Shown piece by piece: positions 13,335-42,599 of a DNA stretch of 64,000 nt. The stretch covers positions 67,027,501-67,091,500 of the forward strand of contig CP142451.1 in the NCBI GenBank assembly GCA_038049695.1, in the 5' to 3' direction. This DNA is from Cinnamomum chago (Eukaryota; Streptophyta; Magnoliopsida; Laurales; Lauraceae). Positions within the stretch are counted from its first letter, which is position 1. Each line of letters opens with the position of its first letter. The notes under the pieces are model-generated. The model made no database searches, was not told the DNA's origin, and was given only the letters and a program-made list of their open reading frames with translations. Position numbers and translations under genes: made by a program.

Positions 13335-14534
13335 GCCTTTGGTAGCCATTTAGGAGTGTTTATGAGCTTTGATGGCTTTAAAGCTCCATGATGGGAGGAG
13401 TTACAAGTTTTTATTTCTTGATTTTGTAACTCCTTTTTCCTTGAATCTGATTGGCCGATGGGGAATGATGGGCTTTTAATCGCTTTTAATCTCCATGATG
13501 AGAGGAGTTTCATGGCTTTAATGCCATGATGGCTTTGACTTGTAACTCCCATTTCCTTGCTTCTGATTGGGCCGTCCAAAATAATGAGTGAATGACCGCA
13601 TTTAGTTGGGTCAATTAACAATATTAAGTGGTCGCCGGGGATTTGAAGAGTCGTGGGCCATGCCGCGTCTTTTGAAATTCTTCTTGCGATGATCGACGAT
13701 GGATCTTCATGTTGATCGATGTCGGATGACCATGCAACTTCAGACATAAATTGCTAATAGCGGGCCGGTACCATCTGTCATGTCGATTTCTAGATCGGTC
13801 GGACAGAAAGTGTACTTTCTTGATCGGCCGGTTGGAGATCTTGGAGCGATCGATGACGATTTCATGCTCTTGATGGCGGATCCGAGATGTCGATGAAGAT
13901 CAGTCATTTTCGAGCGTTGAAAATCAGATTTTCAGGAAATAACAGGGGCTGGAACTCCCGAAACGCAAAAAGAATCGAAAAAAGGGCCTTCCGGCGGAAA
14001 TCCGGCGACCCGAATTTCCATGGTCGCCGGTGTAAGACCCCGACCTGAGTGAACCCACTTAGTGTTAATTATGTCGTGTTTTAGTCCTAAGCGTGTTTAG
14101 TGGATTTTGGTTAGGTTGGGCTCGGAATAGCTTTTGAAATAGTTTTGGGGAATTTTGATTGCTTTGTGATAGTGGGGCCCTTTGGGGGTTCCCTTTTATG
14201 ACCTTGCATGCGCTTGAGGATTTATCAGAGATTTTTGCATTCATTGTTTTAATCCCGTTTTATTTGTATTGTTAACCCTTACAACTTTTATGTTGATCTC
14301 GTCCCCGTTTGAGATCCCGAAACCCGATTTTATAGCCTTGAGGGCAAAACAATCATTGTGCACAAAATCTGTACCCAAAACTTGATATTCCTGAAATCCG
14401 CGAAACATATACTTTTTGGAAACTTGATATTTCAGCAATCATTTCTTCCTTCTTCGTCGAATTTATCCGAGATCCCGAAAGACATGATTTCAGCCCTTGA
14501 ATGTCTTAAGTAGTGGGACCCACTCCCATTTGCT

Positions 14535-14542
14535 TATATAAG
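14535..14542 (+). promoter_or_regulatory. TATA box of solo LTR A1
   Basis: TATATAAG, 505 bases from the LTR start; the same site is conserved in both LTRs of element A (29361, 43120). What follows is a leader of about 2.5 kb, with a donor-like ACAAGTAAGC at 14782. Confidence 0.65.
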
Positions 14543-15379
14543 GAGAACCCATCTTCCCCATTCCCTTTTTCCAGCATAAAAAGAACCTAGGGTTTACTTG
14601 GCAACTTTCTCTTCTTCTTCTTGCTCTCTCCATCTCAATCTCCTACTAATCTTGCACCAACATCAAAATGGAGGTCATCATTCTCTTCCTCATAACCATA
14701 GCTATCTTTTGATACCATTTGTGAAGAAAATCTCCCATTCCAAGACCTTCTTTGAGCTCACCTTGCAATTTGGAGAACCTACAAGTAAGCAACCTTCCCC
14801 ATCTCTTAGATTTGTGCTACTTTGATTTTGAAGAAGTCCCATTCTCATTATTGTAAGGTTTCCCTTTCTATTTCATTATTTGACCATTTTAGGGCTTGTT
14901 TTTTGGGATTTTGTTCATAGCTTGGTTCGTTGGCTTGGAAGAGTATTAGAGCTTGATTTCCTTGATTAGAAGACCCAAGGCAAGTGGATGAAATGATAGT
15001 TTGAACATTTAATGGTTTTATGAAGAAGGTGGTTGGTTTTGCTATTCATATCCATATTTATTAGCTTGCATTCATTGTGAAATAAATGCTCATGAAAGGT
15101 TTTTGTTAGCTCATTTATTGTCATGGAAATGTGATTTATTGCCTTTATTTTATCTCTTGTTTATGGCTCAAATGAACCTTTGTGAATGTTGGGGTTTCTT
15201 CTCTTTCTTTGGTGTTGAGTGTAAAGAAGAATGTGTTTAGATTTAATGTTTATTGGAGTTTTGATGAAGGTTTTTATATGATCGTTTGAAGAGAATGGTT
15301 GTTATTGGGAGGCAAGAAGGCCTTTTGTTGCAAGAAAAATATTTTGGAGATGAATGAGAAAAAGGCCAGAATGGCCATT

Positions 15380-15580
15380 CCCGGGCAGCAGAAATGACTG
15401 CCCGCTCGAGCGCGCAGTCATTCTGACTGCAACTCAGGCAGCAGATTGGTTGGCCGCTCGAGCGCGTTGTTGGCCGCTCGAGCGCGTTGTTGGCCGCTCG
15501 AGCGCACCATTGGCCGCTCGAGCGCGCAGACGTTCTGTCTGCCCGTTCGTCTGTGCAGCCCAGGTCCGCTCGAGCGTACC
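15380..15580. repeat. CGCTCGAGCG palindrome island in solo LTR A1
   Basis: Six CTCGAG words, mostly in the context CCGCTCGAGCG, four of them in a near-perfect 21-base tandem (15470-15525). The first sits in a longer hairpin: arms AATGACTGC and GCAGTCATT around CGCTCGAGCG. GCAGAC / GTCTGC forms another at about 15526-15542. The island lies about 850-1050 bases downstream of the TATA box, so it would be in the transcribed leader. Confidence 0.8.
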
Positions 15581-17339
15581 CCCTCTTGGGTATGGACCAT
15601 TTTTGGAGCTCGGGAAAGGTTTTTAAGGGAACCCCTTGATATCGGGGAGAATTATTAGGCAATGTATGAAGCCTATTCGAGAAAGAAACCACATCACAAA
15701 GATTCATCGAAGTCTTAGTAATCACCAAGGTGTGCAAGGAGCTTGGAATGTCCCTAAACTCAAAGAGTACCAAGTTATATCGAAATTGACATACGAGACC
15801 CCTATTCACCTTGGGCTAGATTTGAATCCCGATACTTGTTCCGAAACTTCAAAAGATCAACTATGTTTTCAATTATTTTGAATTGTCACATGTACTCCTG
15901 AAAATTCATGAATTATGGTTTATCATTCCCGAAAGCATGGAAATTGTACTTGTATTAATTGCGAGCCTTGAGATGCATTGCCCGACGTGAAATGACAGTG
16001 TGCCCTTAAGCACCCCCGTCCTGCCCGTTTATTTACTTACATTTGGTTTACTTGTACATGTCTCGATTGGTGTTTGACCTATGAGTCGGCACCACTAAGC
16101 TTGGATAACCTTGTTGGTCTGATCCACCGACTTGGAGATCCCCTTCTTGTCCCACCAGTTGCGGTTTGGATCCTGCTATATTACCGTGGTCTTGTCCCGA
16201 TGCCGTAGATTGCTACTGTGGTTCCCGATGCCCGGCTCGCTACCGTGGTCATGTATAGTATATGTATATGTATTTATAAGATCCACTGTTTCTCCTTACC
16301 TCGAGTGACTAAGATCAGTGCCTAGTTATTGCTCTGTCACCTTAGTGATAGAGGACTTAGCTTCGTGTGGTTGTCATCTTGCTTGTTTCTCGTTTCCTTG
16401 GTCACCTGTACATGTTTTATAATGCATACTTGTATTTGAATAAATGTTTTATCTAGTTCATAGAAACTATTATTTAAACAGGTTTAAATGCTTTTGGAGG
16501 TAAATTCATTTATTATCATATTGTCATTGTGTTTTACCCATTTGCCAAACCGTCGTGTTTGACCCACTCTTTGGTACTCATGTCCCGTTGCCGGGGCTAC
16601 CTTGAGGAGGAGCCAGAGGAGGCGGTCGATGAACCGCAGCACTTAGTTGAGTGGCGTGCTGATGATGTCGTATAGATATTCGATTGCAAAGAGAGACATA
16701 ATATTTTGGGGAAACTATTAACCATTCTTTGGGAATTGATATTTTGTTTATATTGGCCTTTGTTGGCCTCTATTTTTGGGAATGTAATTAAATGACCGTT
16801 GTATAAACTTTAACTTACTTTTGGGAAACATGCTAATGATCATTGCTCATTCTGATACAGTATTTATACTTGTGTATTGTCTTTATGACTAGAGATGGTT
16901 TGAATATTTGATTTGCTACACGCTTCCGCACTTAAAAGAAATGTTCATGTATGGTTGGAATATCCTCACCGCGGACACCTGTGGGAAATTAAATAAATGT
17001 ATGGCATTAAACCGATGATGTGGTATTTTATCATCATTAATGTCCCGATCTCAGATTGGCTCAGTGGACCCGGTCCAGGGTCGCGACAGCCGGTGACCAT
17101 GGGGGGATTTTCCACTTTGGTCGCCGTTTCGTCTGTCGTTTTTCGAGTTTTTTTTTATTTCTTTTTATTTCTCCTGTATTTTCTTGACATTTTATCCTCA
17201 TTTTTTGGCTTGGTTCTCCTGAAGAAAATCCGATGAGAAGTCGTGCAAATCAGTGCACAAAGTTTCTTATTTTTTGGAAAAGCAAAAGACTTTGTCGTGC
17301 AGAGTTGCCGATTTTTGTCAAGAGTCGAAACTAGATCAA

Positions 17340-19416: not shown

Positions 19417-22400
19417 ATGGCTTCAAGTAAGTTTTCTTCCTCCACAAGAAATTCCATTTAGATGTAGAATTCCTTTTCTCTTCTTTCTCCTTCTAATTTT
19501 TTTCTTTTCCCTTTTTTTCTCACGTGTTTTCTTTTTCTTTTTTTTTCACGTGTTGTTTTTTTGTTTTTTTTTTGTTTTTGTTTTTTTCTTTTCCTTTGCT
19601 GTACGGACAGGTCCGTACTTCCACGTGGCAGTGGGCCACGGCCTGTTGCTCAAATTTTTTTTTTTTTGAAACTTCTCTCTCCTTTTTCTTTTTTGTTTCT
19701 CTCTTTTTTTGCTCACCAAGATAATGAGGTTTATGCATTCCAACATGTTCATGCATATTTCTTTCTTTCTCTCTTTTTGTTGGTGCATCAAGATAAAAGG
19801 CTAGAATTTCTAGGTCAAGTCAACATGAATTTTGACTTTGACAAAGTTTGATTGGTTTTGACCAAGTTAGGTTGGAATTGATCAAACTTTGGTTAAATTT
19901 CTCCTAGCATCTAATGCATGATGATTTTTTGGATGCATGCTTTTTAGTAAATTGATTGGGAGCATGATGATGCATACCTGGAAATCTTTTGTAAGTTTTG
20001 GGATTTGGAGCTCGCAGCAATGTTGAGCCCTTTCCTGACCTTGCTGGATTTTGAGGAGGTTCGCAAGTTTTGGAGTTTGGAGCTCGCAGTGATGTTGAGC
20101 CCTTCTTCAAACTTGCGGAGATTCGATAAAATTGGTTTGATCTTGAAGCAATGTATGAGTTCAAACCTTCTTTGAGGATGCTTTGTTGAGCTTATCTTCA
20201 AGCTTCCTGTCTTCTTCGGGATGTCTCCCTTTTCTTCGGAATTGTCCCGGAATCATGCCAAAATTTCGCTAGAATTTTTTCTTAGCAAAATTCGGTCACT
20301 TTAATGATTGATTTTTTCCTTTTTCATCCTTTGCAGGTAGTTCCTCCAGAACGAACAAGGGCAAAGAGCCTGCTACTGATGCACCTCGTCGGTTTACCAG
20401 GTATTCTAATGTGGCCGTACAGCAGGCCTGGGAGAAGGTTCAGTTTGTGGAGAGAAACCTGGAAGAGAGTGACTCCCTCAACCGCGATGAGATGAGACAG
20501 CGATTAATAGCTCTCAAGGATGAGGAGTTTTACAAGATTATGGCTAGCAACCGTCCTTGGGTCATGGACGATCAAAGCATTGTGCCCAAGCTTACCTTCT
20601 TCTTTGGCGACGCAGTCCCTGACGACTTGACGTACCAAAGAAGATGCTTTCAGTTCTCTTACACAGCTAATCGTGAGGAGAGAACTATTTCTACCCGGTC
20701 GACTTTTGATCGGACTGTCTCGATCATGAGTCTTTCTCCCTCGAGTCCTAAGAGGGAGGATCCTCCAAGCTAGGTGAAGAGGACCAATGTGATAAAGACC
20801 GGGGTTTTTGTTGGCGGCCCTTCCGGATATGTGGAGAAGTTGCCCGTCCGTATGGACATATTGATGCCCTCTAGTGGCTACCAGGGTTCTGACCATCCGT
20901 CGGTCAATTTGAGACCAGTTGGCCTTGGCATTTTTCGGGGTGACGGCAGCAGTTGGGTGAAGCCTTTTCGACTTCGTGGCCGTTTCAGTGCTGATTCGAG
21001 CTATGAATCATGGACTGATCACATCCTGCAGGTTGGCAGAGCCATTTTGAAGGATGCCAGGATCTTCGATGCGGTTCGCGCTTTTCGGAAGACCGTGGTT
21101 TTCTCCGATGAGGCCTTCATGGCCATGCTAGAGTCATTCCTTCCACAAACTAACACCTTCATTGTGACGAACGATGAGATTGATTTTACTTTGAAGGAAT
21201 TAAGCGTCATCACCGGGCTGCCCCTCCTTGGCAAACTCTATGAGGAGTTTATGCCCATCGACAGCGTCCTTGAGGAGCAATCTAAGGAGTTTAGGCTCTT
21301 GTACTTTCTGCTTGTCGCCTTCTATGATTTTTTGAAGGAGAAGGAGGGCTCGAAAGTCCGGTGTAGCAGTTGGAATAATTGTAGCTCCAACTTCTTTGAC
21401 GGCGGAGAGTCTTCTGATGGTATGGCCCAAGATGCTAGGGCCAAGAACCCAGGTTCGAAAAAGATCTCCATTATGTGAGATGACTTGAAGAAGTTCTTTG
21501 AGAATACAAACGCCATTTGTCCTGACATTGCACTGCGAAGAGATCTCGCTGTTTACCTCACTTATTGGTTGGGTGAGGCTGTTTTCGCTGGAGGAGATGG
21601 AACACACATCAGGCCGCATTGTATTTTTCAGGCTTGTCAGATGGCGTTCGGAGAGCGGTTGGCTTTGGTGCCAGCTCTTTACTCCTACTTGTGTACCGAA
21701 CTGCAGGCTGCTGCTTTTCTGGTTCGGCTTGGGCTCCCTATGAACAGGGTATTTTCAGCCCATATTTTTTATTCGTGGTATGTTTACCACTGTCCTGGCT
21801 TCCACCGCTTAGGAGTTGCGCAGGATGATGACCCTTTCATGATTCGGTTGGCTAGAGGGACAGCCGTTTCCGAATCTCTTTTGACTGCCTGTTTGAGGAT
21901 CCGACGGTTCAGGGACGTCGAGATCGGGCAATCTTCAGTGAAGCTTTCCCCAGGTTTGCGGAAGAAGACTTTTGATTTTGGAGCCTCCCGTGATTCCACC
22001 AGGGCGAGATCGGGAAGACATTACTCCTTGACCAATGCCGAAACGGGGTGGCGTTTTAACATACGTGTTGGTACGATGGTGTACCGGAGACATCTTTTTG
22101 TTGATATCCAGCTGTATGTTCCCTCACGTTTCGCGCTGTAGTTGGGCTTCTTAAGGTGTTGTTGGAGCGCCTTCGAGCATGGTGAAGCGCTTTGGAGGTT
22201 TGTAGGATGGAAGGAATGCATGTGCCTTTTACAGTGCAGAGGACACAACCGCCATGATTTTTTATCCTGAGTTGCTCGCTTTCCGGACTACTGGCTCCAC
22301 GAAATGGTTTGCGGAAAGATTTTCAGTGTACCGGGGGCTTTCCAAGAAGGAGCTTGATGTCAAGCAATCTCCTGGGAAGGGTCTTGGAAGATTAGATGGA

Positions 22401-24207
22401 GTCCGTCGAGAGGAAGTTCTGGCTTTCCTTTCCGGAGAAAGCAGGACATCATCAAACCAGGAGCTGTACAAGAGATACCTAGTCAGGTGTTGGAACAGCT
22501 CGAAGAGGAGGAAACCGAGATCGAGGCTTGGATGCAAGCGGAACTGAAGAAGGCTTCCATGGAGTCCACTGGGAAGAATAGACCATTCGGTGAGGAATCA
22601 AGTGAATCTCCTGACTTTGACAGTGGGGCTGGTACATTAAGTAAACCAACCCATAGAAGCAAGAGGAAGAGAGGGCAGCGCCGTAATAAGAGACGGCATG
22701 AAGACTCTCCTGATTTAGAAGTCCCTCTCACCACTGTTGAAGAAACGTCAGGGGATGTTGATGAGCCTCCGGAAAGAGGAGTCGGGAGGAAGAAACAGTT
22801 GATGAAGGTATGATTCCTCCTTTTTCCCTTTTCGTTTCTTTCTTTGAGATTTTCTTGTTTTGATTTGCCTTTTCTCCCTTTTCAGTGGAAGATGAGGACT
22901 TGATCTTGCCTGAGGTTCCAGCCAATGAGGCAGCGACGGATCCGGTTGCAGCATTTGAAGAAGAACCGAGGGATCCTGGAGTGATTCTAGAATCTTCACC
23001 TGGTGTGACTTCTTTGTATTTTCGTTTCATTTTTTTGTCTATGCTGTCATATGCTAACATGTTGCTTGTTTTCTTGTCCGCTGACTTGCCACAGGATTTT
23101 GACGATTTCGAGCCATCCATGGACGCGGCCTTTGACGACACTTCGGATGAACTCATGGAGGCAAAAAGTATTCCGCCAATCGTCAAAGAAGGTATTTGTA
23201 GCAATAATCCTGATGATGATGAAAATCTTTAACAGGATCATATTCCTACCACTTTTTTGTTTTGTTTTGCTCGTAGGTTTTGAGGTAGCAAAAGAAGTTC
23301 ATCCGTCTTTCTCAGTGCCAGAGCAGGGGATGCCTGCAGTTGAACCAGAAGTAGGGACTTCTTCTTCCAGTTTTAATGCAGCAGAGAAGAAAGCATCTGA
23401 GCAGATTCCTTAGCCAGTGTCTCCGGTTAGAAAGAACTTAATGATCACTCCTCTAGCAGGACATGACATGGGCAGTCGACCAATGGAGAGGGGCGAGCCT
23501 TCATCCGGGCCATCTCTTGAGTATGCGAAGAAAGTGTTGAAGATCGTTTTGAGCTCATGGATCGAAACTCTTTCTTCTGGCCATTTAGAAGCTGGCTTTG
23601 GCATGGTTAAGCATGTATAGGAAATCCTTGCTGATAGCGAAGAAGTCGGCCTGGACATTGCAGATGCAAAGGCTATCATTGATGAAGTCATAGCTTTAGG
23701 GAGCAAGTGGAATGAAACCAAGAGCTTCCCAAGTGGTGACTTCTGCAATGAGATGTTTTTGAAGCCTTCTGGTGAGGTCAAGTTTGAGCTGGACGAGATC
23801 TCGCAGACTCGGAAGCAATTCGTTCGGGAGAGGAACGTTACCGAGTTGGCTATCATCGGGCTGACAGAGGACCTGCGCAGTGTTGATAGAGAGGTTGTTG
23901 AGACCAGGCAGCGTCTTGAGCTATTGGAGGAACAAGCTGCTGCAAAATGGGCTGCCATTGTGGAAGCTCGTGCTAGAGAAGGGACTCTGATTCGCCAAGT
24001 CGAGGAGGCTGAAAGCAATCTTCGGATGAAGAATCAAGAGTACGAGCAATGACAGATTCTTTGGGAAGAGCTTCCTCGTGCTGCAGATGGATCGCGGCGT
24101 TCTGCCGGATTTTATGGGAAGATCTTGAAGAAGCATGGTCTGAAAGCTTTGGAGGCTAAGGCCAAGAGTCTGCTTGAGGAGTTGAGTCTTTGGCTGAAGA
24201 CTATGTG
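19417..24207 (+). pseudogene. Antisense extra gene of element C: plant mobile domain protein, broken
   Basis: Plus-strand gene lying antisense to element C, between its integrase end and its 3' LTR. ORF pieces at 20774-22141 carry plant mobile domain (PMD, formerly aminotransferase-like) signatures: FSDEAFMAMLESFLP, TNTFIVTNDEIDFTLKELSV, ITGLPLLGKLYEEF, and further on DLAVYLTYWLGEAVF and HIRPHCIFQACQMAFGERLA. After it come an acidic and basic low-complexity stretch (22487-23230) and a coiled coil rich in E, R, Q and L (23753-24052). It has introns: the start ATGGCTTCA is followed by GTAAGT, with the acceptor TTTGCAG at 20336, and short introns with GT/AG borders lie around 22812-22886 and 23233-23277. 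The PMD is known from the plant proteins MAIN and MAIL1 and from transposable elements. The frame is interrupted in several places. A host origin of the domain is inference. Confidence 0.7.
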
Positions 24208-24469
24208 AGACTGAGCTCCTAATTCTTGTAACAAACCTTTTTTTTCTTCTTCTTTTTGGTACTCGTGTATACACACACTTATTTTTTGGTACTCTTTCTT
24301 TTGTAGTGCCTGTGGACATTTTTTTAGCACTTCCTTTTTTGTATTCCCTCTTTTCACTCAAATTCTTTTGTGATAAATTCAAGCAATAGTTAAATGGGAA
24401 CGTTTTTTTGGAAATTTGATCAAAAGTTTTTCATTTTGTGAAAAACCTTTTATCAAATGGTTGTTTTGG

Positions 24470-25330
24470 CGTGAAAACTGAATTTGGGTCGGTATGGAAG
24501 CCGAATTTTGAGATGGCATGAAAGCCAAAATTTGGGTCGGCATGGAAACAGGAATTTTGTGGAGCAAAAGCCAAAATTTGGGATGGCATGGAAGCCGGTT
24601 TTGTTTGTGGCATGGGAGCCAAAAATTTTGAGATGGCGTGAAAGCCAATTTTGAAATGGCATGAGAGCCGGATTTTGTGGCATAAGAGCCGAAGTTTGGG
24701 ATGGCATGGAAGCCAGTTTTGTTTGTGGCATGGGAGCCAAAATTTTTGAGATGGCGTGAAAACCAATTTTGAAATGGCATGAGAGCTGAATTTTGTGGCG
24801 TAAGAGCCGAAGTTTGGGATGGCATGGAAGCCGGTTTTGTTTGTGGCATGGGAGCCAAAATTTTTGTTTGTGGCATTGATAGCCGAGATTTGTTTTTTGT
24901 TGGCATAGAAGCCGAAATTTGTTTTTGGCATGGAAGCTGAATTTGTGGCATTGATACCGATTTTGTGGCGTTTATAGCCGATTTTTTTTTAAAAACCAAG
25001 CTCTGTTTTGTTGGCATGAAAGCTGAATTTTGGCATGAGAGCCGGGTTTTGTGGCATTTATAGCCAATTTTTGTGGCATAAGAGCCGGGTTCTTGGCATT
25101 TATAACCGATTTTTGTGGCATTTATAGCCGAGTTCTTGGCATGGGAGCCAATTTTTTTTTTTGAAAACCAAGTTTTGTTTTGTTGGCATGAAAGCCAAAT
25201 TTTAAATTGGCATGAGAGCCAGATTTTGTGGCATTTATAGCCATTTTTGTGGGGTTGATAACCGAGTTCGTGGTGTGAGAGCCGGGTTTTTGGCATTTAT
25301 AGCCAATTTTTGTGGCATTTATAGCTGAGT
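24470..25330. repeat. GGCATGNNAGCC array, about 35-40 bp units
   Basis: Over twenty copies of words like GGCATGGGAGCCAAAATTT, GGCATGAGAGCCGG and GGCATTTATAGCCG. Each has GGC and GCC arms round a 6-base loop, sometimes longer (TTGGC / GCCAA). Larger units of about 130-190 bp recur at 24590-24860. The long minus ORFs across it are repeat translations. The array lies in the 3' region of C, past the end of the antisense gene. 24208-24469 holds T-rich sequence with no gene. Confidence 0.75.
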
Positions 25331-25347
25331 TTTTGGTTTTAAAAAAT

Positions 25348-25917
25348 GCAAGTATCGACTAAAAGTCGCCTCCCTGCTTAATGGTCTTGCAAGTATCGAA
25401 GAAATGTCGCCTCCTTGCTCATTCGGTTGCGAGTATCGATGGAATGTCGCCTCCTCGCGAATTTGGGTGCAAGTATCGACTAAGCGTCGCTTCCTTGCTT
25501 TTTTCAAAAAATTTATTTTTGTGGGTATCGATTGAATGTCACTTCCCCACAATTTTTGAAATTTGAGGTCTCTTTTTTTTTTGGACCTCGGTGTTTTGTT
25601 TGAATTTTGGGTTTGTGGATATCAACTGGAATGTTGCGTCTCCACAATTTTTGACATTTTGCAAGTATTGACAGAGTGTCGCTTCCTTGCGATTTTGAAA
25701 CTTGAGGTCTCTTTTTTTTTTGGACCTCGATTTTTTGTTTGAATTTTGGGTTTGTGGATATCAATTGGAATGTTGCATCTCCACGATTTTTGAAATTTTG
25801 CAAGTATCAACAAAGTGTCGCTTCCTTGAGATTTTGAAATTTTGGAAGTATCGAATGGGGTTCGCATCCTTCCAATTTTCGGGTTTTGCGAGTATCGACT
25901 GAGAGTCGCTTCCCTAC
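25348..25917. repeat. Array of eleven ~30-bp hairpin units with compensatory stem changes
   Basis: Units start at 25348, 25389, 25429, 25469, 25521, 25615, 25661, 25754, 25800, 25844 and 25888. Each has a 5-base outer stem, then TAT, an inner CGA(C)-type stem, and a return. Outer stems seen: GCAAG/CTTGC, GCGAG/CTCGC, GTGGG/CCCAC, GTGGA/TCCAC and GGAAG/CTTCC. Inner stems seen: CGAC/GTCG, CAAC/GTTG and CGAA/TTCG. The middle of the array also has two GAGGTC ... GACCTC hairpins with T-rich loops (about 25564-25589 and 25703-25729), giving a higher-order unit of about 138 bases. Between 25918 and 26280 no gene is seen. Confidence 0.8.
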
Positions 25918-26280
25918 GGTTTCTGAAAAACCTTTTTTTTGTTTAATGACACGAGGGTCATAAATTTTGACTTAAAACCATTTTTGGTTGTAAAAGTCAG
26001 GGTGGACTAGTGAGGAAATTCTTAAGTCCTGATTTTGTTTCAAACCATGAATTTTGGGTTCAAGGGTAAAAAATTTGGTCAAGTCCGGGAAGAGGCTCCT
26101 AAACTTGGATTTTTGGAATTTTTTTTTGAACAATGAAACTATGAAAGTAAGCATTGTTTTGAAATTTTAGAAATCTCAACATAAGGATGAAAATTCTAAA
26201 AGAGGCGGGTTTGACGAGCAAGTACCTAAGAATAGGCTTTTGGCCATGCAAGCATTGCTCTGACCCAATGGCGTAAGTCT

Positions 26281-27640
26281 TCAAGGGTAGTACCGCTTCA
26301 AGAACTTGTCTTTGATGGGCAGCATACATCTGTCGCCCTCCATGTTTAGAAGTGCGTATGCGCCATTGGAGAAGACTTTGTCAATGACGAAGGGTCCCTC
26401 CCATTTTGGTTCGAGTTTGCCTTTGGATTTGTGGGCAGAAACCATTAGCCTTTTTACTGTAAGAACCAAGTCACCCTTTTTATAGGTGCGTTGCCTGACC
26501 TTCTTGTCAAAAGATCCTGCCATGCGCGCTTGGTACAACTCAATGCTTTGTAAGGCTTCGAGACGTCTTTCGTCGAGATTGTCCAGTTCTTGGAGTCTCA
26601 GTTTGACATTGCTTTCTTGCGTCATGTCATTTTGTAAAGATACCCTTAAGGAAGGAATTTGTACTTCCAAAGGGACAACAACTTCGCATCCATAGACCAA
26701 AGAGAATGGTGCGCTATGGGTTGACCCTCGAATGGTGGTTCGATAAGCCCACAAAGCTTCAGGTAGTTTGTCTCCCCAGTCTCTTTTCTGACTAGAGACC
26801 ATTTTCTTGAGAATTTTGCAGAGTGTCTTGTTGAAGGCTTCTGCGAGTCCGTTTGTTGGCGGATTGTACGGAGTCGAAGGACAACTCTGGATTTTGTATT
26901 TGTCGCAAAACCTGTAGAATCGGTGATCCCAAAATTACGGTCCGTTATCATGAACGAGTCTTTTAGGTATGCCGAAGCGACAAATAATGTTGATGTGCAA
27001 GAATTGAAGGACTGATGAGGTCTTCATTTCACTGAGTGCAAATGCTTCTGACCACTTGGAGAAATAATTCGTAGCAGCGAAGATGAAACGATGGCCTTTG
27101 CTTGACGGGGGAGAAATAGGACCTATGATGTCCATACCCCAAGCATCGAACGACCATGAGATTGCTGTGGGGTGTAGCCATTCTGGAGGCATATGAACAT
27201 AGTCTCCATGAACTTGACATTGGCGGCAGCGTTTAGCAAATTGCATGGTGTAAGCTACCATGGTAGGCCAATATTATCCTAGCCTTTTTATCAGATCATA
27301 GAGCTTGGGACCAGCTTGATGAGCTCCACAAAGACCAGCATGAACTTTGAGGGTTTCCTCAGCCTCTTGTTGTGACAAGCAACGCAGAAGTACTCCGTTG
27401 AAGGATTTTCTATAAAACATTTTTGAAGGTATATCCAAATGAAAGTTTGAGGCTCGTCTTTGAATCTTACCCGTTCTTTTGGATCTTTAGGGAGGATTCC
27501 GAACATGGTGTAATCAATGAACGGATCTCTCCAGTCGCCGATCGAAGGTTTGAGGATAAAGATCCGACTTCCGGCCAATTGGTGGCATTCAACAACTGCT
27601 TGGTGTGTGTTAAGAGGGGGGAGAATCTTTCTTTTACACA
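26281..27640 (-). pseudogene. Integrase of element C (Tat lineage), broken
   Basis: Minus-strand ORF pieces at 27261-26935 and 26802-26281. The catalytic core shows AWGMDIIGPISPPSSKGHRF, then CRFGIPKRLVHDNGP. The C-terminal part shows LPEALWAYRTTIRGSTHSAP, FSLVYGCEVVVPLE, KKVRQRTYKKGDLVL, KLEPKWEGPFVI and the end LKRYYP. A CRQCQVHGD segment near 27230 is the end of the zinc-binding region, and a piece at 27677-27291 belongs to the part just before the core. Integrase inserts the element's DNA copy into the genome. The reading frame is interrupted in places. Confidence 0.85.
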
Positions 27641-27649
27641 CTTTGATTT

Positions 27650-28021
27650 TCATGTTTTCCCCTCCCTGGATCGCCATGGATGCGGCAAGTCCGGCCAGTG
27701 CATCTGTACGGATGCTCTCACCTCTGAGGATATGGGTGATATGACAGATGCAAACCTTTGACGAAGTGATTGGGCCTTGTTGTAGTAAGGCAACAGATCA
27801 GGCTTCCTGACTTCAAATTTCTGATTCATCTGGTTGACGATCAGTTGAGAGTCTCCAAAGACTTCCAGCATGGTGATGCCAAATTCGAGGGCTAGTTCCA
27901 ATCCTACAATTAGGGCTTGGTACTCAGCTGCATTGTTTGAGCATGGTTCCAGTAGCGAGAAAGCATGTGGAATCATGTGCTTGTCGGGGCTAACAAAGAG
28001 GATGCCAACTCCTAAGATCAA
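27650..28021 (-). pseudogene. Second (archaeal-type) RNase H of element C
   Basis: The ORF shows SLLEPCSNNAAEYQALIVGL, EVFGDSQLIVNQMNQKFEVR and LLPYYNKAQSLRQRF. This is the ribonuclease H type found after the ordinary RNase H in Tat-lineage elements, where it lies between the gypsy RNase H and integrase, exactly as here. It is the main ground for placing C in the Tat lineage. Confidence 0.8.
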
Positions 28022-28024
28022 CTT

Positions 28025-28849
28025 TCATTTTTCATTTGTCCTGGTTGCACCGTCAAAGTACATGTCCCAGGAGGCATTTAGTGAGAAAGTCTCCACGTTG
28101 TAGACAAGTTCGTCTGGGAGATCATCCCTTAGTGGGGAATCTTTAGGCAACGGATGCTCTACAAGAAAGTCTGCTAGAGCTTGGCCTTTGATTGCCATTT
28201 GTGGTACATACCTGATATCAAATTGTGATAAGAGGATGGACCATTTTGCCAGTCGGGCATTGGGAGAACCTGCTTTTGTGACAAGGACCTTTAAGAGGTT
28301 GATCCTCGAAATCAGGTAGACTGTGTTCGAAAGAAGGTAGTGACGTAGCTTTTGTACGGCGAACATCATTGCAAAGCATTCTTTCTCGACTGGAGAGTAG
28401 TGATGCTCCGCACCTACCAGCATACGGCTGAGGTAGTATAGAGCATCTTCTTTTCCCTCGTCATTCTCTTGTGCGAGCAGGGCGCCCAAGGAATGGTCGA
28501 GAGCTCTTGTGTACAGGATGAATGGTTTTCCAGTGGTAGGGGCAGCCAACACTGGTGGTTTGGTTAGGTATGACTTGATATCTTAAAATCTGCTTCACAT
28601 TCAGCAACCCAAACAAAGTTCACACCTTTCTTCATCAATTGAGAGAAAGGACGACATTTCCCCGAAAGATTGGAGATGAACCGTCTGATGTAAGCCAATC
28701 TTCCTTGAAGTCCTTTCAGTTCTCTTAAGGTCCTTGGAGAAGGCATTTCAAGAATAGCCTTGACTTTGATGGGGTCAAGTTCTATTCCAGCTTTCCGAAC
28801 TATGAATCTGAGAAACTTACCCGATGAGATGCCGAAGAAGCATTTCAGG
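28025..28849 (-). pseudogene. RT thumb/connection and RNase H of element C
   Basis: Minus strand. At 28746-28564: LRELKGLQGRLAYIRRFISN and FSQLMKKGVNFVW, the end of reverse transcriptase. At 28552-28025: PFILYTRALDHSLGALLAQE, YYLSRMLVGAEHHYSPVEKE and WSILLSQFDIRYVPQ, the ribonuclease H, followed by KGQALADFLVEH. Element A is inserted just before the thumb, and RT continues at 47848 on its far side. Broken. Confidence 0.85.
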
Positions 28850-28854
28850 GGATT

Positions 28855-31800
28855 TGTAAGACCCCGTCCCGAGTGACCTCGATTAGCATTAATTAAGTTG
28901 TGTTTTAGTTCTAAGCGTGTTTAGTGGATTTTGGTTAAGTTGAGCTTGGAATAGCTTTTGAAATAGTTTTGGGGAATTTTGATTGCTTTGTGATTAGTGG
29001 GGCCCTTTGGGGGTTCCTTCTTTATGACCTTGCATGCGCTTAAGGACTTATCGGAGATTCTTGCATTCATTATTTTAATCATGTTTTATTTGTATTGTTA
29101 ATCCCTACGACTTTCATGTTGATCCCGTCCCCGTTCGAGACCCCGAAACCCGATTTCATAGCCTTGAGGGCAAAACAATTATTGTGCACTAAATCTGTAC
29201 CCCAAACTTGATACTCCCGAAACCCGCGAAACATATACTTTTTGGAAACTAGATATTTCGACGGTCACTTTTCTCTTCTTTGTCGAATTCATTAGAAGCC
29301 CCGAAAGCCAAGATTTCAGCCCTTGAATGCCTTAAGTAATGGGACCCATTCCCATTTGCTTATATAAGGAGAACCCATCTTCCTCATTTCCCTTTTCCAG
29401 CACAAGAGATAACCTAGGGCTTCTTGCAACTTTTTCCTTCTTCTTATTGCTCTCTCCATCTCAATCCACCACCAACCTTGCACAAATTGAGAGGTTGAGA
29501 TCATCGTCTTCTTCCTCATCACCATAGCTCTCCATTGATATCATTGCTAGAGAAAACCCTCCATTCCAAGACTTCCTTTGAGCTCACCTTGCCCATTTGG
29601 AGAACCTACAAGTAAGCAATCTTCTCCATCTTCTAGATTTGTGTTCTTCTAGTCCTAGAGAAGCTTCATCTCCATTATTGTGAGTTCTATCTTCTTCATT
29701 CATCATTTGACCCATTTTAGGGTTTGTTTTTAGGGATTTCGTTCATAGCTTGGATCTTTGGCTTGGAAGAGTATAAGAGCTTGATTTCCTTGATTAGAAG
29801 ACCCACGGCAAGTGGATGAGTTAATATTATGAGCTTTCAGTGGTTTTAATGAGGAATGTGGTTGATTTGTCATTTTCATTCATATTTATTGGCTTGCATT
29901 GATTTTTGAGATAAATGCTTGAATGAACCTTTGCTAAGTCATTTAATGTTTTGGAAACATGTTAGTTATAGTACTTGTTGTCTTTTGGATATATCTTAAA
30001 TGAATGTTTGTGAATTGGTTTCTCATTCCTCTTGTGGTTGTTATGGTTAAGAAGGAGGTGATGGAATGAACACATATTAGAGTTTTGAAGAAGTGTAGAT
30101 AGGGGTATTGGAGGAGCTCTTAGCTCAGTTTTATCACAGGGATTAAATGAAAGTGAGGAGAATGGTTTTGAGGAGGAAAAATGGCTCAATCTTAACACAG
30201 TGGGTGTTTTCCGCACCTGGTGGTCAGCCAGCGGTCACCTGTTGGCGAGCCGTTTGGTGACTGGCGGCTAACGGCCAACTAGCCGAACAGTCGTGGTTAC
30301 TTTTCCAGAGTGCAACACTTTCCTCCTGAAAACACGGTTAGCCTCACAGTTAGCAAGCGGCTAACCGCCTCACCCATCGGCGGCTAACCGCCAGCCAACC
30401 GACCCATTCGGTTACTTTTCCAGAGAGCAACATTTTCCTCCTAAAAACAGGGCCAGCCTCATGCTTAGCAAGCGGCTAACCGCCAGCCAACCGACCCATT
30501 CGGTTACTTTTCCAGAGAGCAACATATTCCTCCTGAAGGCATGGTCAGCCTCACGGTTAGCAAGCGGCTAACTGCCTAACCCATTGGAGGCTAACCGCCA
30601 ACCAACCGAACCGTTTCAGTTACATTTCTAGTAATCTGTCTTTCTGTCAAGCCAACCGCGGTCAGCCAGCGGCTAACCGCCTAACCCAACGGCGGCTAAC
30701 CGCCATCTGACCGCTAGGTAACCGAAATCACCCAGACAACCATCCCAGAGAGCTCCTCACTCGAGCGATGAGCTTTGTCGGTCAAAGGCTATGTTGGGAC
30801 AATGATGAACTATTTAAATGTTTTGGGACTATTCATTGAAAACCCCTCTATGTCAGAGAGATTTACTAAGCAATGTATGAGGCCATCTGAGAAAGAAACC
30901 ACATTACGAAGATTTTATTTGAAGTTTTGAAAATTCAAAGTGTATAAGGAGCCCGAGATGTCCCGAAACTCAAAGAGTACAAAATTATTATTAGATCGAC
31001 ATACGGGATCCCTATTCACTTCAAATAAATCTTTAACCCGATACTTTACCCAAAATTTCAATTGTTTATTGTACTTTATAGATACCGAGATTTATACTAC
31101 ATGCTTAGTTTGCTTGAAAGAGTTGAAGTACACTTACAATGGTTACTTGTCTTGAAGTGCATTGCACCACATGAAACGACAATGTGCCCATGAGCACCCC
31201 CGTCCTGCCCGTTTATTTGTTTGTACTTGATTTACTTGCACATGTCTCGATTTATTATTTGACCTATTAGTCGGCACCACTAAGCTTGGATAACCCTATT
31301 GGTCTGATCCACCGACTTGGAGATCCCCCTCTTGTCCCGCCAGCTGCAGTTTGGATCTCGTTACCCAGTTATTACCGTGGTCTTGTCCTGATGTCGTAGA
31401 TTGGTACTGTGGTTCCTGATGCCCAGCTCGCTACCGTGGTCATGTATAGTATATGTATATGTATTTTATAAGATCCACTGTTTCTCCTCACCTCGAGTGA
31501 CTGAGATCAGTGCCTAGTTATTGCTCTGTCACTTTAGTAATAGAGGATTTCGCTTCGTGTGGTTGCCATCTTGCTTGTCTCCCGTTTCCTTGGTTACTTT
31601 TACATGTTTTACAATGCCTACTTGTATTTGAATAAAAGTTTTATCTCGTTTATAGAAATTGTTATTTAAACAGGTTTAAACGCTTTTGAAGGTAAATTCA
31701 TTTATTATCATATTGTCATTGTATTTTACCCATTTGCCAAACCGTTGTGTTTGACCCACTTTTTGGTACTCAAGTCCCATTGTTGGTTATCCCGAGGAGG

Positions 31801-32277
31801 AGCACGAGGAGGCGGTCGGAGAACCGCAACCGTTAGTTGAGTGGCATGTTGTTGATGTCATTTAGACATTGGATTGCTAGAGAGAGATAACATTTTGGGA
31901 GAACTTCTAACCATTCTTTTGGGGATTGGTATTTTGTTCATATTGGCCTTTGTTGGCCTTTATTTTTGGGGAAATGTAATTAAATGATCTTTTTATAAAC
32001 TCTAACTTACTTTTGGGTAACATGCTAATGATCATTGCTCATTCTGATATAGTACTATACTTGTGTCATTATCTTTATGACTAGAGATGGATTGAATATT
32101 TGATTTGCTACCCGCTTACGCTCTTAATAGAAATGTTCTTATATGGTTGTGATATCCTCACCGCGGACAACTGTGGGAAATTAAATAAATGTATGGCATT
32201 AAACCGATGTGGTACATCATCATCATTAGTGTCCCGATCCCGGATTTGTCCTTTAGGCCCGGTCCGGGGTCGCGACA
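28855..32277 (+). mobile_element. 5' LTR of element A
   Basis: 3,423 bp from TGTAAGACCCCGTCCCGAG to GGGGTCGCGACA. TATA box TATATAAGG at 29361. A donor-like ACAAGTAAGCAATC at 29608 suggests the long leader may be spliced. A GGCTAACC hairpin island lies at 30200-30720. It matches the 3' LTR across its length and, more distantly, solo LTR A1. Confidence 0.92.
30200..30720. repeat. GCGGCTAACCGC hairpin island in the 5' LTR of A
   Basis: Many copies of GCGGCTAACCGC (4- or 5-bp stem, CTAA loop) and of (C)GGTTAGC AAGCG GCTAACC(G) hairpins, with AGCCAACCG between. Larger units of about 120 bp share CGGTTACTTTTCCAGAGAGC and CCTCCTGAA. The island lies about 840-1360 bases past the TATA box. The matching island in the 3' LTR is at 43975-44465. 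Confidence 0.8.
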
Positions 32278-32280
32278 GAC

Positions 32281-32292
32281 TGGTATCAGAGC
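32281..32292 (+). other. Primer binding site of element A (tRNA-iMet)
   Basis: TGGTATCAGAGC, three bases after the LTR end; the standard initiator-Met tRNA complement used by Tekay and many other plant elements. Confidence 0.9.
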
Positions 32293-32423
32293 GAGACGTG
32301 TTTCAAGCAATTAAAAGAAACTAGAAATCCTAAGGACGTGGCGAGGATTCGTTAGCTAGTATCGTGTGAGCAATGTGACCCTTTATTTGATTATTATGTG
32401 CTAACAATTTGTTTTGCAGCATC

Positions 32424-33779
32424 ATGCCACCTCGTAAGCGACCGATAAACGACAACCCTTCTGCAAGCAATAGTGATCATACAGGGCCACTTGAAGAGGA
32501 TAGGGTTGATAACAACACGCCAAATCAATTCCAACCAATGATGCAAGCAATGCTTGACCAACATCGTCAGGCCAATGAGAATCAAGCTAGATTGCAAGAG
32601 CAAATGCTTAAGAGGGAGGAAGATCATGCAAGAGAATTGGCAGAAATGCAGAGGCAGTTGTTAGAGGTATTACAGAGAAGGCCCGAACCGGTTCAACCTC
32701 AACCCGCTATTGTCATCAATCAGAGGCAACATGACCCAAATGCATTATTTGAGTGGTTTCGGAAGAGGGCTCCAAAAGAGTTTCTTGGGATAGAAGACCC
32801 ATTAGTTGTAGATGACTGGCTAGAGCATACAGAGAACATCTTTGAGATCTTCCAGTGCACCGGAGGAGAAAGAGTAAAACTTGCATCATCTCTCTTTAGC
32901 GGTACAGCGGACAAATGGTGGAAGACAGTTAGGGAGGAATACAGGACTATGGCTGATGCAGAGATTTGGGCAACTTCAAGAGGTAATTCCATGATAAGTA
33001 TGTACCCGCCCACATCAAGAGACAGAAGGCAATAGAATTCCAATAGCTTGTGCAAGGGAATATGACAGTCCTAGAGTACCTCACCAAGTTTGAGAGACTA
33101 TCAAGATATGCTCCAGAGTTAGTGGACACCGTTGAGAAGAAGATTGCAAAGTTCCTTGAGGGATTAACCCTTTCATTGAGAGAAATGCTACCGGAGTTGT
33201 ACCACCTACAACTTTCGATGAAGCTGTCAAGAGGGCCTACAAGTTTGAGAATTTCCATTACAAGATCCTTAGAGTCCAAGGCAAGGGACAAGCTCATCAA
33301 CAGAACTACCAGCACATGAATCATCAGAACAAGAAGCAGAGGACAGAACCGAGTACTCAGAATCCATTGGTGTGTGCCCACTGTGGGAAGAACCATGAGA
33401 GTGCATAGTGCCGTACACTGACAGGAGCGTGCTTCAGATGTGGTTCCATGACCCATCAGATGAGAGACTGTCCAAGGCAGAATAGACAGAATTAGCAGCA
33501 GCAGCAAGGGGCACATCGTCCAGCAGCACCACAGAATGCAATCATTGTCCAGAATCAGGTAAGGCCACTCCAGCAACAAGCACCACAACAGCAGCAGCAT
33601 AGACCACATCAGCAACAACAACAGGCTCATCAGCAGGGACAGAACCAAAATCAGCGTGCACCGCAACAACATAGGAATGCACAACAAGGCAGGCCACAAC
33701 AAGCTCCAAACAGGCCACAACATTGAGGGCAAATCTATGCGGTCAATAGAGCTGATGCAGAGGCAGCGGGAAATGTAGT
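32424..33779 (+). pseudogene. gag and start of protease of element A
   Basis: Starts MPPRKRPINDNPSASNSD at 32424, right after a TTGCAGCATC context. Features in order: glutamine-rich coiled segment, FRKRAPKEFLGIEDPLVVDD, WLEHTENIF and SSLFSGTADKWWKTVREEY (the gypsy gag core, pfam retrotrans_gag), MTVLEYLTKFERLSRYAPEL, zinc knuckle CFRCGSMTHQMRDC (about 33430), then a Q-rich stretch (33490-33720). Gag forms the capsid. The protease begins near the end, where the CACTA element is inserted. The frame is broken. Confidence 0.85.
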
Positions 33780-33782
33780 GGA

Positions 33783-34035
33783 CACTAAAAAAAAAAGGAC
33801 TTTTAGTCTCGCTTTTGAAACGAGCTTTTGTGTCGCTTTTACAATAAAGTGACACAGTATGGTCTGATGTGTCACTTTAGAGGAGGAGTTAACGAGGAGG
33901 AGGCTTGTTGGGTCACTTTTCTATAACGCGACTCACAAAACAAATTTATGATTTTCCCCCACTAAACAAAAGTGACACAAAAAGTTTAATTGTTATTTTC
34001 TTTCATGAAATAGGAAAGAAAAGCGACACATGAAC
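33783..34035. repeat. Left terminal and subterminal repeats of the CACTA element
   Basis: After the terminal CACTA come repeated words TGTGTCGCTTTTA, AAAGTGACACA, TGTGTCACTTTA, AAAAGTGACACAAAAA and AAAGCGACACATG. Such subterminal repeats are the transposase binding sites of this superfamily. Confidence 0.8.
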
Positions 34036-34139
34036 TTGCCAAGTGATAATTTGGGTTCCCTCCATCGTAAGCATTTCATTCCCTCACTCCAACCCTAATC
34101 GACTTTTAGCCCACTCAAGTGCATACCATTTCCAGCGCC

Positions 34140-34640
34140 CCCTCTGCCTCTTCTCAGTCCCTCATCTCTTCCTCATCTCTCTGACCCTCTCTCGCCCAGC
34201 AATCCCTCATCTCTTTGACCCTTTCTCGCCTGTCATCCCTCCATTTCCTTCGCCCTCACGACCTCAGCCCTCTCCTCCCAGGAGACCTGCGCTCCTCCAT
34301 CTCCCAGGTGCAGAAGCTCCTCTATCTCCCAGGAGACCTGCGCTCCTCCATCTCCCAGGCGCAGAACCCCCCTCTCCTCCATCTCGATCACCCTCTGCAT
34401 CTCTCTCGGTGTGCCACCTCTTCTGTTTTTCTGATTTATGGTTTTGTTGATTTGAGCTTACTGGTGCTCTTGTATTTCTTCATTTTTTTAGTGGTAGAAA
34501 TAGAAAGGAATGATCTTGCCGTGTCTTATCTTGTTATTTCAAAGGAATGGTTTGGCTTCTGTGAAGTGCTGCTACTTGGAAGTGGGCTGGTGTTGGTTTG
34601 GGGACAAAGAAACAAGGGTTTAGGGTTGTGATTTGTGTTT
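34140..34640 (+). other. C- and T-rich possible captured promoter/first exon, with 51-bp tandem duplication
   Basis: Rich in CTCTCTGACCCTCTC-like sequence. A 51-base unit with CCCAGGAGACCTGCGCTCC occurs twice (about 34275 and 34326). Plus-strand ORFs span it (34043-34450, 34215-34631) and encode proline- and serine-rich sequence. It may be the 5' end of the gene whose later exons follow at 35164, but this is inference. A second direct repeat (ATGAGCTGTCGGCCAATATG) lies at 34691-34751. From 34760 to 35160 there is AT-rich intron-like sequence. Confidence 0.4.
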
Positions 34641-35163
34641 GGCTACTGTGTATTGGATAGATGAGTTATGTGGTTGGTGTATCAGGGGCAATGAGCTGTC
34701 GGCCAATATGTATTGGGTTTTATGAGCTGTCGACCAATATGTATTGGGTTTATCAGGACGGAAATTCGGTGTGCCTTGCGTTTGGGCCCGATTGAAATTT
34801 TAAAGTGGGGGTTGCATCAAACAGTTTTTTCTTTTAATGCCATTTGATCTGATGTTTTTGAGTAATTCCTGAATATTCTCAGTATTGGTCTGTCTATTCG
34901 ATCACACATTATCTTGATTCTTGAAGCTCTGGAACTTAAACTATATTGTCAATTTGAACTGTGGACTGCTTCTGTGTTCTAGAGAAAGGAACAAATTATT
35001 TCTAGACTCTCTCTCTCTCTCTATGTGGGTGTGTGTTTATATGTTTTCACTTAAACATAGGGGCGCTTTGTGGGCAAGTCAAATATGCATGCATGAAAAG
35101 CTACAGTTCAAATTTTGTTTGATTTGTTTTGGTTGATGAATACCTCATTTCTTTTATTGACAG

Positions 35164-35524
35164 GTGTGAAATATTCTGAAGGAGTGCCAATGTATCCTTT
35201 ATACAGGCATCTTGCATTAACTTTACACGATTGTATAACCTCTGGAACTTTTTGTAAATCATCCAACACAATGGCACAGAGTCAGGAAAACGAAGTTTTG
35301 AATCAGAAAGAGAACGAATGGAGTAAGCTGATTATGGATAAGGGATCTGAACTGATAAAAGTAAGATAACAAGTGTTATGCGATCTAAATATGTTCTTCA
35401 GACTATTGGTTGGAAAGTGCATGTTTTAGTTACCACAATATCAATGAACATGTGCTTTGTTAGATGGTGAAGGCAGTTGGTTTTGAGCTTCATGTCCAGG
35501 AACCTTTTTTCTCACAACTAAGAG
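35164..35524 (+). pseudogene. Captured exons resembling a plant ASCH-domain protein gene
   Basis: Two exons with proper splice borders. The first, 35164-35360 (after TTGACAG, before GTAAGA), reads GVKYSEGVPMYPLYRHLA, LTLHDCITSGTFCKSSN and NEWSKLIMDKGSELIK. The second, 35464-35524 (after TTGTTAG, before GTAATA), reads MVKAVGFELHVQEPFFSQLR. Exons join in phase. The pattern (W..LI...G.EL followed by FELHVQEPFF.QL) matches, from memory, the start of plant RNA-binding ASCH-domain proteins, where DGLKT.EGR follows. Only the part before and entering the ASCH domain is present; the rest of the domain is absent, so this is a gene fragment carried by the CACTA element. Identity rests on recall, not a search. 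Confidence 0.6.
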
Positions 35525-37497
35525 GTAATACATAACCATTGATCAATCTAGTTACTTTTTCCTTACTATGAAGATTTTATGGGAGCCCATGCTGTACTTT
35601 CTTATATGGGTAAATTTGATATTGGTTGGCTTGGACCGTGGTAAAAATTGTGTTAGAGATTTGTCACTGCCAGTCATAACTAGATTTTGTTAGATCCCCA
35701 CTTCTCTGCATAGTGGAACAACCATAACCCCTTGATTGACTCTGTAAATACATGGTTAATAATGGAAAGTACAAGTGGTTCATATAATAATAAAACAGAA
35801 AGGCCTCATTGGTGATTAAGATCTTCCAATCTGGGCTATTTATGGGTCATATTGTAGGTTCAATTAGTTCAACAGTACAGGCCAACGGGTTTCATGTTTA
35901 CATACCAGAGCCTTGATGGTACTTCGGTATCCTCAATTAAAGGATCACATAAGCCCTCTTTGTTTAGGTAAATTTCACTATTTTCTGCTTCAAACCAACA
36001 TCTGCTAGGAATGTATGGTCCAATTAAAAGCTGTAGTTTAGCCAAATATTGAATTTGGGTTGAATCCTGCTCTCCCCACAGTTTTAAAGACACCAATGCA
36101 AGGCCTTAGTCCATCACTTAATTATTTCTGAATCTAACATTTGCTAATTCTCCTCTGTCTCTCTGTGTGTATATATAGAGATGGATTCAATTGGAAATCT
36201 CATTGGGGGAGATTAAAATCTCAATATTTTTAATTTTTAATTATTTTTTATGTTGTGGGTAATTTTTTTTTTAAATTGGTATGAATTGGAAATTGCAAAA
36301 TAGTTGCTTTATGACTTGTTAGCTGTATAGGGTTGGGTTCTTTTACTAGTTCCATCTTTCTTTTGCTTGTTGGAAATGTTACATGCTTTGGTAGATTAGA
36401 TTTATGTGAAACAGTAAATCACCTTTCTAGAGAGAGAGGAAATTAAATGCTTTGATTGAAAAAAGATATTACAAATGGAAAAAGAAGATTTTATGAGCTT
36501 AGATGAGAACCCCATTTAAATGCTACTGGTGATGGAAGTCACCAAAGTCTGATGTAGTTGGAGCACATATATGAAATGAAGCTGAATGGACTTCATTATT
36601 AATTGAATGTAACAGTTTTAGAATATTACAGGTTGTAGACATTGTTGAATGGAATGAAATGAATGACACTAAAAATGTTACGAATTTTGTTTCAGGTTAT
36701 TACGAATTATGGAATTTGTTTCATGTGCTTAGTTACGTGTAACTGACAGTTTGATCTGTTATTTGTCCATAACCAATTAGTTGTAAACAGACTTGAAAGA
36801 GTTAATAGGTAAACCGAATGTGTGGGGAATCTGAGCTCTGAGGATCCCCATGGGGCCTTACTTGGGACAAAATAATGCCAATACTAAGACAAGGCACCTA
36901 ATAAAAGATCCCATTGTCAATGCACACTCTGACCCTAGATATTTCCAAAGACAATGCAGCTCCATATAAGGAACAAAGTAGGCCAACTACTGTACTTCTG
37001 GATTCAGCTGAATCCTCAAGGGATTTAAACGAAATAGATCAACTCCATAGGAGGGGGTTGGCTGAATTCCTCTAGGGGATGGGATTCGACATACAAGCAT
37101 TCTCAATCGAAGATAATCACTCACAAGTCACAACCATAGGGAAACCAAAAACAAATTTTTAAACCTGCATCTCCTAACGGAGGGTTGACATATCTATAGA
37201 AAAGATTGGACTTACCCCTTTCCTAGTAGTGTCACATGCTGTGCAGGAGAATAACAAGGATACACTGTAACACTGATTGGATGAGCCAGCAAGCAGATGT
37301 CCATTGATCAGATGGACGGGATTGACCAATCAGTGTCGGTGTCCATCATTTGAACTGTTTAGATTCCGCACACATGTAATGCAACATGTAAGTAACTGTC
37401 TGCGTGTGTTTGTGCGTATGATCCTCCATCTCTCTGTATAATTCTCTCAGTGATATGATTTCTTATATTTTTCTTTGCACCTGTTATACCATGGAAG
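35525..37497 (+). other. Intron-like sequence inside the CACTA element
   Basis: AT-rich, with no ORF of interest on either strand. The minus ORF 35869-36096 looks like chance. A stretch at 36830-37200 is less AT-rich and of unknown origin. Probably introns of captured genes, and the junction between two captured pieces. Confidence 0.45.
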
Positions 37498-39196: not shown

Positions 39197-39199
39197 GGA

Positions 39200-42570: not shown

Positions 42571-42599
42571 TATATTTCATTTGGAGGACCAAATGCCCT

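Follow-up and report, generated by a model that had tools for sequence, protein, structure and literature searches.

The window analysed here is a stretch of 64,000 nucleotides from the genome of Cinnamomum chago (contig CP142451.1, positions 67,027,501 to 67,091,500 of the forward strand). On its minus strand lies the 3′ part of the pol region of a Ty3/gypsy element (26281-28840, in several frames, with the stop codon at 26281-26283). Pfam recognises in it RNase H (RT_RNaseH, 28028-28582, E 7e-26), an additional RNase H-like domain (RVT_3, 27653-28024, E 5.5e-14) and the integrase core (rve, 26938-27273, E 9e-7, below Pfam's cut-off). There was no Pfam match to a reverse transcriptase domain in this pol part, and our own reading of the translation suggests that the end of that domain is present. 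The additional RNase H sits between RNase H and integrase, an arrangement described as marking out Ogre and Retand within the Tat clade (PMC6317226), and the element was assigned to that clade. The same source reports an extra open reading frame (ORF) with a plant mobile domain (PMD) in 57% of Ogre elements and with Transposase_28 in 23% of Retand elements. Here, antisense ORF pieces on the plus strand (20312-24049), convergent with pol, match PMD (PF10536) weakly, with E values of 1e-4 and 3e-5 that both fall below Pfam's cut-off, and no Transposase_28 match was found among the pieces searched. The Tat pol is apparently cut near 28855 by another LTR element, which occupies 28855-47840 on the plus strand, has a gag-like ORF near 32391 and carries repeats at 28855-32278 and 42613-47840 that are about 94% alike, the latter with an insert. 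An LTR-like block at 14031-17089 is related to this second element.

Between pol and the antisense ORF pieces, 363 nt past the pol stop in the sense direction, lies an array of eleven hairpin units of 30-31 nt each (25348-25917). An earlier note on this DNA had described eleven units of about 30 bases between the convergent pol and PMD ORF and had listed their outer and inner stems, and in all of these respects it proved correct. All eleven were recovered by a sequence-only profile, itself built from those units. A Tat 3′ tandem-repeat array is defined by at least three tandem units between pol and the 3′ LTR; the array here has eleven, its position being read from the pol side. On the minus strand the units are s1 (25348-25377), s2 (25389-25418), s3 (25429-25458), s4 (25469-25498), s5 (25521-25550), s6 (25615-25645), s7 (25661-25690), a second s6-type unit (25754-25784) and a second s7-type unit (25800-25829), both products of a 139-nt duplication, s10 (25844-25873) and finally s11 (25888-25917), the unit nearest pol. 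The duplicated block also contains a hairpin with a poly-T loop, GAGGTC...GACCTC, whose two copies lie at 25565-25589 and 25704-25728; this form occurs in 24 of 39 copies of subfamily A and in none of 29 copies of subfamily B (both introduced below).

On the sense strand, each unit consists of a 5-bp outer stem, an internal loop with GANG opposite AUA, a 4-bp inner stem of which the last pair is often open, and an apical loop. In s1, for instance, an outer stem of 5 bp, with G-U on the sense strand at pair 4, is followed by the internal loop GAGG/AUA and an inner stem of 4 bp. Stem letters and apical loops vary among units: the outer stem is GCGAG/CTCGC in s3, GTGGG/CCCAC in s5, GTGGA/TCCAC in s6 (inner stem CAAC/GTTG) and GGAAG/CTTCC in s10 (inner stem CGAA/TTCG). 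Across the 612 units collected from the genome, the apical loop measures 5-6 nt in 609, the AUA side of the internal loop (TAT on the plus strand) is kept in 604, and the other side reads C-N-T-C on the plus strand in 578, with all four letters occurring at N. The most conserved part of the unit is this asymmetric 3x4 internal loop, which was absent from the earlier note. By likeness to known RNA motifs, it may be built of non-canonical pairs with one flipped base. An Rfam search of 24400-26400, with matches accepted up to E 1, returned nothing in the array and two matches outside it (E 0.15 and 0.44), far below gathering scores.

In the sense direction the hairpins are followed by a second array (24467-25327, minus strand) of 32 matches, 14-15 nt each, to a loose pattern resembling TGGC-loop-GCC[A/G]. 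The block at 24494-25331 folds at z -5.7 on the sense strand and z -2.0 on the plus strand relative to shuffles. A repetitive ORF of 305 codons runs through the second array (24379-25296, minus strand) and is probably open only because the repeat has no stops in that frame. On the other side, the stretch from the hairpin array to the pol stop (25918-26280) also folds better than shuffles (sense z -3.9, plus z -1.9).

The analysis covers one genome (1.06 Gb, 14 contigs) and two close subfamilies, whose labels were assigned by how the copies were fetched. Searching the DNA with the array as query yielded 1,786 first-look candidates, 40 of which were scored; subfamily A comprises 39 further copies obtained by this array similarity (L009-L047). 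Subfamily B comprises 29 copies obtained by integrase similarity (L049-L077), namely the first 30 of 150, which were scored, minus the window copy. The presence of the array is a matter of construction in A and a result in B, where all 29 copies carry it. A genome search with the PMD family as a means of sampling relatives was not useful, other PMD sequences outranking that of the window. The unit search over 69 sequences, including the window copy, passed 612 units at E<1. Pairing limited to this one copy, which the earlier note had considered, is thus not what was found. The other 68 copies hold 3-12 units (8-12 in A, 3-11 in B), and nine slots can be distinguished among the units. Of the 39 A copies, 34 have the plain order s1 s2 s3 s4 s5 s6 s7 s10 s11, and 17 of the 29 B copies have this order minus s7, most others differing by duplication or a missed unit. 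Two B copies, L054 and L055, carry s7 and look A-like; they were left in B. An extra s2-s3-s4 block (about 121 nt in L058) raises the number of units from 8 to 11 in 6 of the 29 B copies.

Exact matches in the whole genome, which count copies and not independent events, number 4,290 for one inner-stem motif (3 for its reversed control), 2,012 for GCAAG/CTTGC units, 830 for GCGAG/CTCGC units and 1,026 for the s6 type. Four reads beside other integrase motifs (L086-L089) showed no units; L088 and L089 are weak negatives, since these reads start only 350 nt beyond the motif and other insertions may lie within them. On the other hand, the array is present in at least one sister type: an s6-type unit (C1:67359935) was found about 600 nt downstream of a different integrase end, of the F-E-P-K-W-E-G-P-Y type (C1:67359315). 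In a family with an N-W-E-G-P-Y integrase end, a 95-nt repeat of 2.7 copies follows pol (L087:369-627), with folding that is not unusual.

The stems of the window keep pairing while their letters change, as the earlier note had claimed. Of the 99 stem pairs, 87 are Watson-Crick against a mean of 67 when the 3′ arms were shuffled among units (200,000 permutations, P 1.2e-4), and the outer stem is indeed fully paired in eight of eleven units (P 5.5e-5). The inner stems are weaker, all four pairs being Watson-Crick in 5 of 11 units and the first three in 8. Letter changes under maintained pairing include transversion pairs in s10. When the majority letters of each slot are taken, pairing again exceeds permutation in both A (P 1.4e-4) and B (P 5.8e-4). 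In these majorities only two positions depart from Watson-Crick pairing: outer pair 4, a sense-strand G-U in s1, in s11 and, in B only, in s4; and inner pair 4, where s2, s3 and s5 have a plus-strand G-U that reads C-A on sense.

A covariation test, a kind of check proposed in the earlier note, was run with 500 shuffles and slid controls; its 94 distinct units came from the window copy and from 13 of the other 68. Three of its five measures exceeded the controls. The covariation score was 0.427 compared to 0.234 for shuffled units (none of the 500 as high) and 0.07-0.13 for slid ones; the cells changed on both sides (113 versus 39) and the percentage paired (90.3 versus 80.6) likewise lay above all 500 shuffles and all slid versions. 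The other two, pairs with a change on both sides (7 versus 6.4) and further pair types (17 versus 16.3), showed no excess over shuffles, and RNAalifold recovered the outer stem only. As related sequences inflate such counts, we place more weight on divergence between the subfamilies.

If the hairpins are under selection in an active element, they should show fewer changes between subfamilies than the spacers, with decay after insertion hitting both alike. For this comparison 39 A and 28 B copies were used, one B copy without s1 being left out, as were s7, the 139-nt duplication and columns with fewer than 10 letters in a group. This retained 126 of 144 stem columns and 84 of 146 spacer columns, the s6 unit being lost to the alignment; the figures are nearly unchanged with all 144 and 146. 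Net divergence between A and B is 0.016 in stems and 0.001-0.002 in internal loops, compared to 0.047-0.048 in apical loops, 0.053-0.054 in spacers and 0.066-0.067 in the flank up to the pol stop. The integrase, compared in the copies with more than 300 aligned bases (29 of 39 in A, all 29 in B), gives 0.020, 0.004 and 0.097 at codon positions 1, 2 and 3. The divergence of stems and internal loops is about as low as that of codon positions 1-2. The contrast of stem plus internal loop with apical loop plus spacer has P 0.004 (stems alone P 0.019, internal loops alone P 0.0003); bootstrapping gives overlapping intervals, 0.003-0.034 for stems and 0.022-0.093 for spacers. Leaving out L054 and L055 changes the contrast little (0.019 in stems, 0.0015 in internal loops, 0.054 in apical loops, 0.062 in spacers).

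Diversity within the subfamilies bears on how these figures are read. In A, stems (0.081) are as diverse as spacers (0.072-0.075), so the stems are not a mutational cold spot; in B the values are 0.047 and 0.081. Internal loops are less diverse within the subfamilies too (A 0.037, B 0.023), and their low divergence may in part reflect low mutability. Majority letters differ between A and B at 3 of 175 hairpin columns versus 10 of 119 others (P 0.008; stems alone P 0.046). All three stem differences keep pairing on sense RNA: at 25495 the change gives G-U on the sense strand, and at 25890/25915, in s11, both partners of one pair have changed from G-C to A-T, a compensated difference.

These results bear first on the alternative that survives best, which we nonetheless consider unlikely, namely that the array is one more functionless, hypervariable Tat 3′ tandem repeat whose structure merely reflects descent from a palindromic founder unit that drifted slowly. 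In the Tat clade, tandem repeats located between pol and the 3′ LTR have been described as common and family-specific (PMC11963269, PMC7004042), and duplications do occur in the array, both the s2-s3-s4 block of subfamily B and the 139-nt blocks of the window. However, a drifting palindrome loses its pairing, whereas here several stem pairs differ among slot majorities and pairing still holds, bar two wobble-type positions, and the hairpins diverge less than the spacers that separate them. For two other families, 12 windows downstream of pol gave sense-strand z values from -1.85 to +1.37.

In our preferred reading, the array acts in cis as a hairpin signal within the genomic RNA (sense, minus strand) of this Tat-clade Ty3/gypsy element; we hold this reading tentatively, at somewhat less than an even chance. 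A related possibility is that the selected RNA is instead the antisense (plus-strand) transcript, with the array at the 3′ end of the PMD-ORF messenger. The array does lie downstream of the PMD ORF on the plus strand, and inner pair 4 argues for that strand: it is G-U on the plus strand in 220 of 612 units and on the sense strand in 8. With G-U allowed, all four inner pairs form on the plus strand in 228 of 247 B units and 283 of 354 A units, versus 134 and 194 on the sense strand. Outer pair 4 speaks for the other strand, with G-U on sense in 158 of 612 units and on plus in 3. The outer lean to sense rests on this pair, the other four outer pairs together giving 59 sense and 69 plus G-U. The direction of change agrees with outer pair 4. 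Reverse transitions (T>C, A>G) at A-T pairs produced G-U on the sense strand in 21 events (37 copies) and on the plus strand in 7 (8 copies; P 0.0125 on distinct events), and spacers had no such bias (in A, rates of 0.0129 for T>C and 0.0123 for A>G; in B, 0.0091 and 0.0119). Genome-wide counts of the two mixed forms lean to sense but fall short of significance (73 sense-wobble matches versus 51, P 0.059). A wobble asymmetry was also sought among all single changes from the slot majority and was absent (sense/plus 101/96 in A, 34/36 in B), as is expected from decay after insertion.

Folding against shuffled controls was another check proposed in the earlier note. The array folds at z -4.55 on the sense strand and z -2.75 on the plus strand, but a few windows outside it reach z -3.2 to -3.8. 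From 24320 to 26599, windows range from z -1.2 to -7.2 on sense and from +0.6 to -3.2 on plus, and the lowest of 62 windows on both strands is 25460-25649 on sense (z -7.24); at window 25650 the plus strand folds better. In the whole-array ensemble, 6 of 11 designed hairpins exceed a mean pair probability of 0.5 on the sense strand and 3 of 11 on the plus strand. Taken alone, the majorities of s2, s3, s5 and s10 fold as well or slightly better on the plus strand, while that of s11 does not form the designed fold there and that of s1 forms it only weakly (-4.8 versus -10.5 kcal/mol on sense). Taken together, the sense strand is more likely the selected one, and we regard selection on the antisense transcript as rather improbable.

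The earlier note had left open whether the paired changes reflect selection for structure or a copying process that uses the hairpin. Covariation, reduced divergence and pairing-preserving differences favour selection, and we think it very unlikely that arms templating one another's correction, through quasipalindrome correction or template switching by reverse transcriptase, produced the pattern with no structural selection. Such copying would yield paired changes and high arm complementarity, and recent double changes within slots do exceed independence (14 versus 6 expected in A, 3 versus 1 in B). However, C>T plus G>A makes up 12 of the 17 double changes listed, and methylation decay can give both of these independently. 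In addition, copying through the arms should have turned the 3x4 internal loop into a symmetric one, whereas its asymmetry persists and its letters hardly vary; its lower divergence between subfamilies would also be left unexplained. Equally improbable is an element selected in double-stranded DNA, either inverted protein-binding sites or a cruciform: the units do form inverted repeats around an invariant core, and for related elements DNA binding by the antisense-ORF proteins has been predicted (PMC11963269), but a dimeric site keeps its letters, whereas here stem letters change if pairing holds, including the transversion pairs of s10, and the wobbles from reverse transitions lean to one strand.

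Under the preferred reading of a signal in genomic RNA, each unit would fold into a 5-bp stem, the asymmetric internal loop 5′-GANG-3′/5′-AUA-3′, a stem of 3-4 bp and a free apical loop. During retrotransposition, selection would have maintained pairing and an unchanged internal loop, leaving the letters of stem and apical loop free to vary. The internal loop would then be the putative read-out site, and some 8-12 units in a row a putative multivalent docking platform for an RNA-binding protein. The putative ligand would most likely be Gag, in packaging or selection of genomic RNA, or else a factor for export or stabilisation of the long unspliced RNA. What the computation shows directly is that the units recur and covary, that they are constrained between subfamilies and that the sense strand folds better; that the unit is a repeated protein-binding hairpin is suggested by the combination of selection on pairing, a fixed asymmetric loop, free apical loops and spacers, and many copies. 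Among candidate roles we would guess at packaging or export through Gag or a host factor ahead of control by the antisense-ORF protein. If the reading is true, part of the supposedly free-varying Tat repeat region is a working RNA signal. The array also offers a defined motif to probe, to mutate and to use as bait, with thousands of units in one genome.

That tandem repeats occupy this place in Tat elements is known already. Tat, Ogre and Retand elements have been shown to carry such arrays between pol and the 3′ LTR (PMC11963269, PMC7004042), so the earlier note's remark that it knew of no described element of this kind needs qualifying: for such repeats, the literature searched yielded no report of structure or covariation. 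Among recently active Retand elements, antisense coding regions are reported in all and tandem arrays in about half, and the Discussion of that paper gives the origin and function of the repeats as unknown (PMC11963269); in its main text the terms hairpin, stem-loop, secondary structure and inverted repeat are all absent. The repeats have also been discussed as raw material for satellite DNA (PMC7004042). The array resembles these described repeats in clade, in place, in being made of short repeats beside an antisense ORF, in copy number that varies by duplication and in family-specific sequence (PMC7004042, PMC11963269). Unlike them, described as hypervariable in the same sources, it keeps its slot order in most copies, and its units covary and diverge less than the spacers.

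Antisense-ORF proteins have been compared with retroviral regulators including Rev (PMC11963269). The array might play in a retrotransposon the part that RNA-response elements play in retroviruses, with a protein encoded by the element, perhaps the product of the antisense PMD ORF, binding it cooperatively to control export, packaging or a switch between translation and packaging; we consider this improbable. Retroviral transport elements and the Rev response element would then be relatives in working principle. The constitutive transport element consists of a single two-loop hairpin that lies between the last gene and the 3′ LTR and is recognised at conserved internal loops. That element, from simian retroviruses, is named in PMC4488727. 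Its likeness to the array is one of anatomy, and the array is a row of hairpins. In the HIV-1 Rev response element, purine-rich internal loops with non-canonical pairs provide several sites for an accessory protein; there, however, they belong to a branched RNA inside env, whereas the hairpins described here stand in a linear row (PMC4488727).
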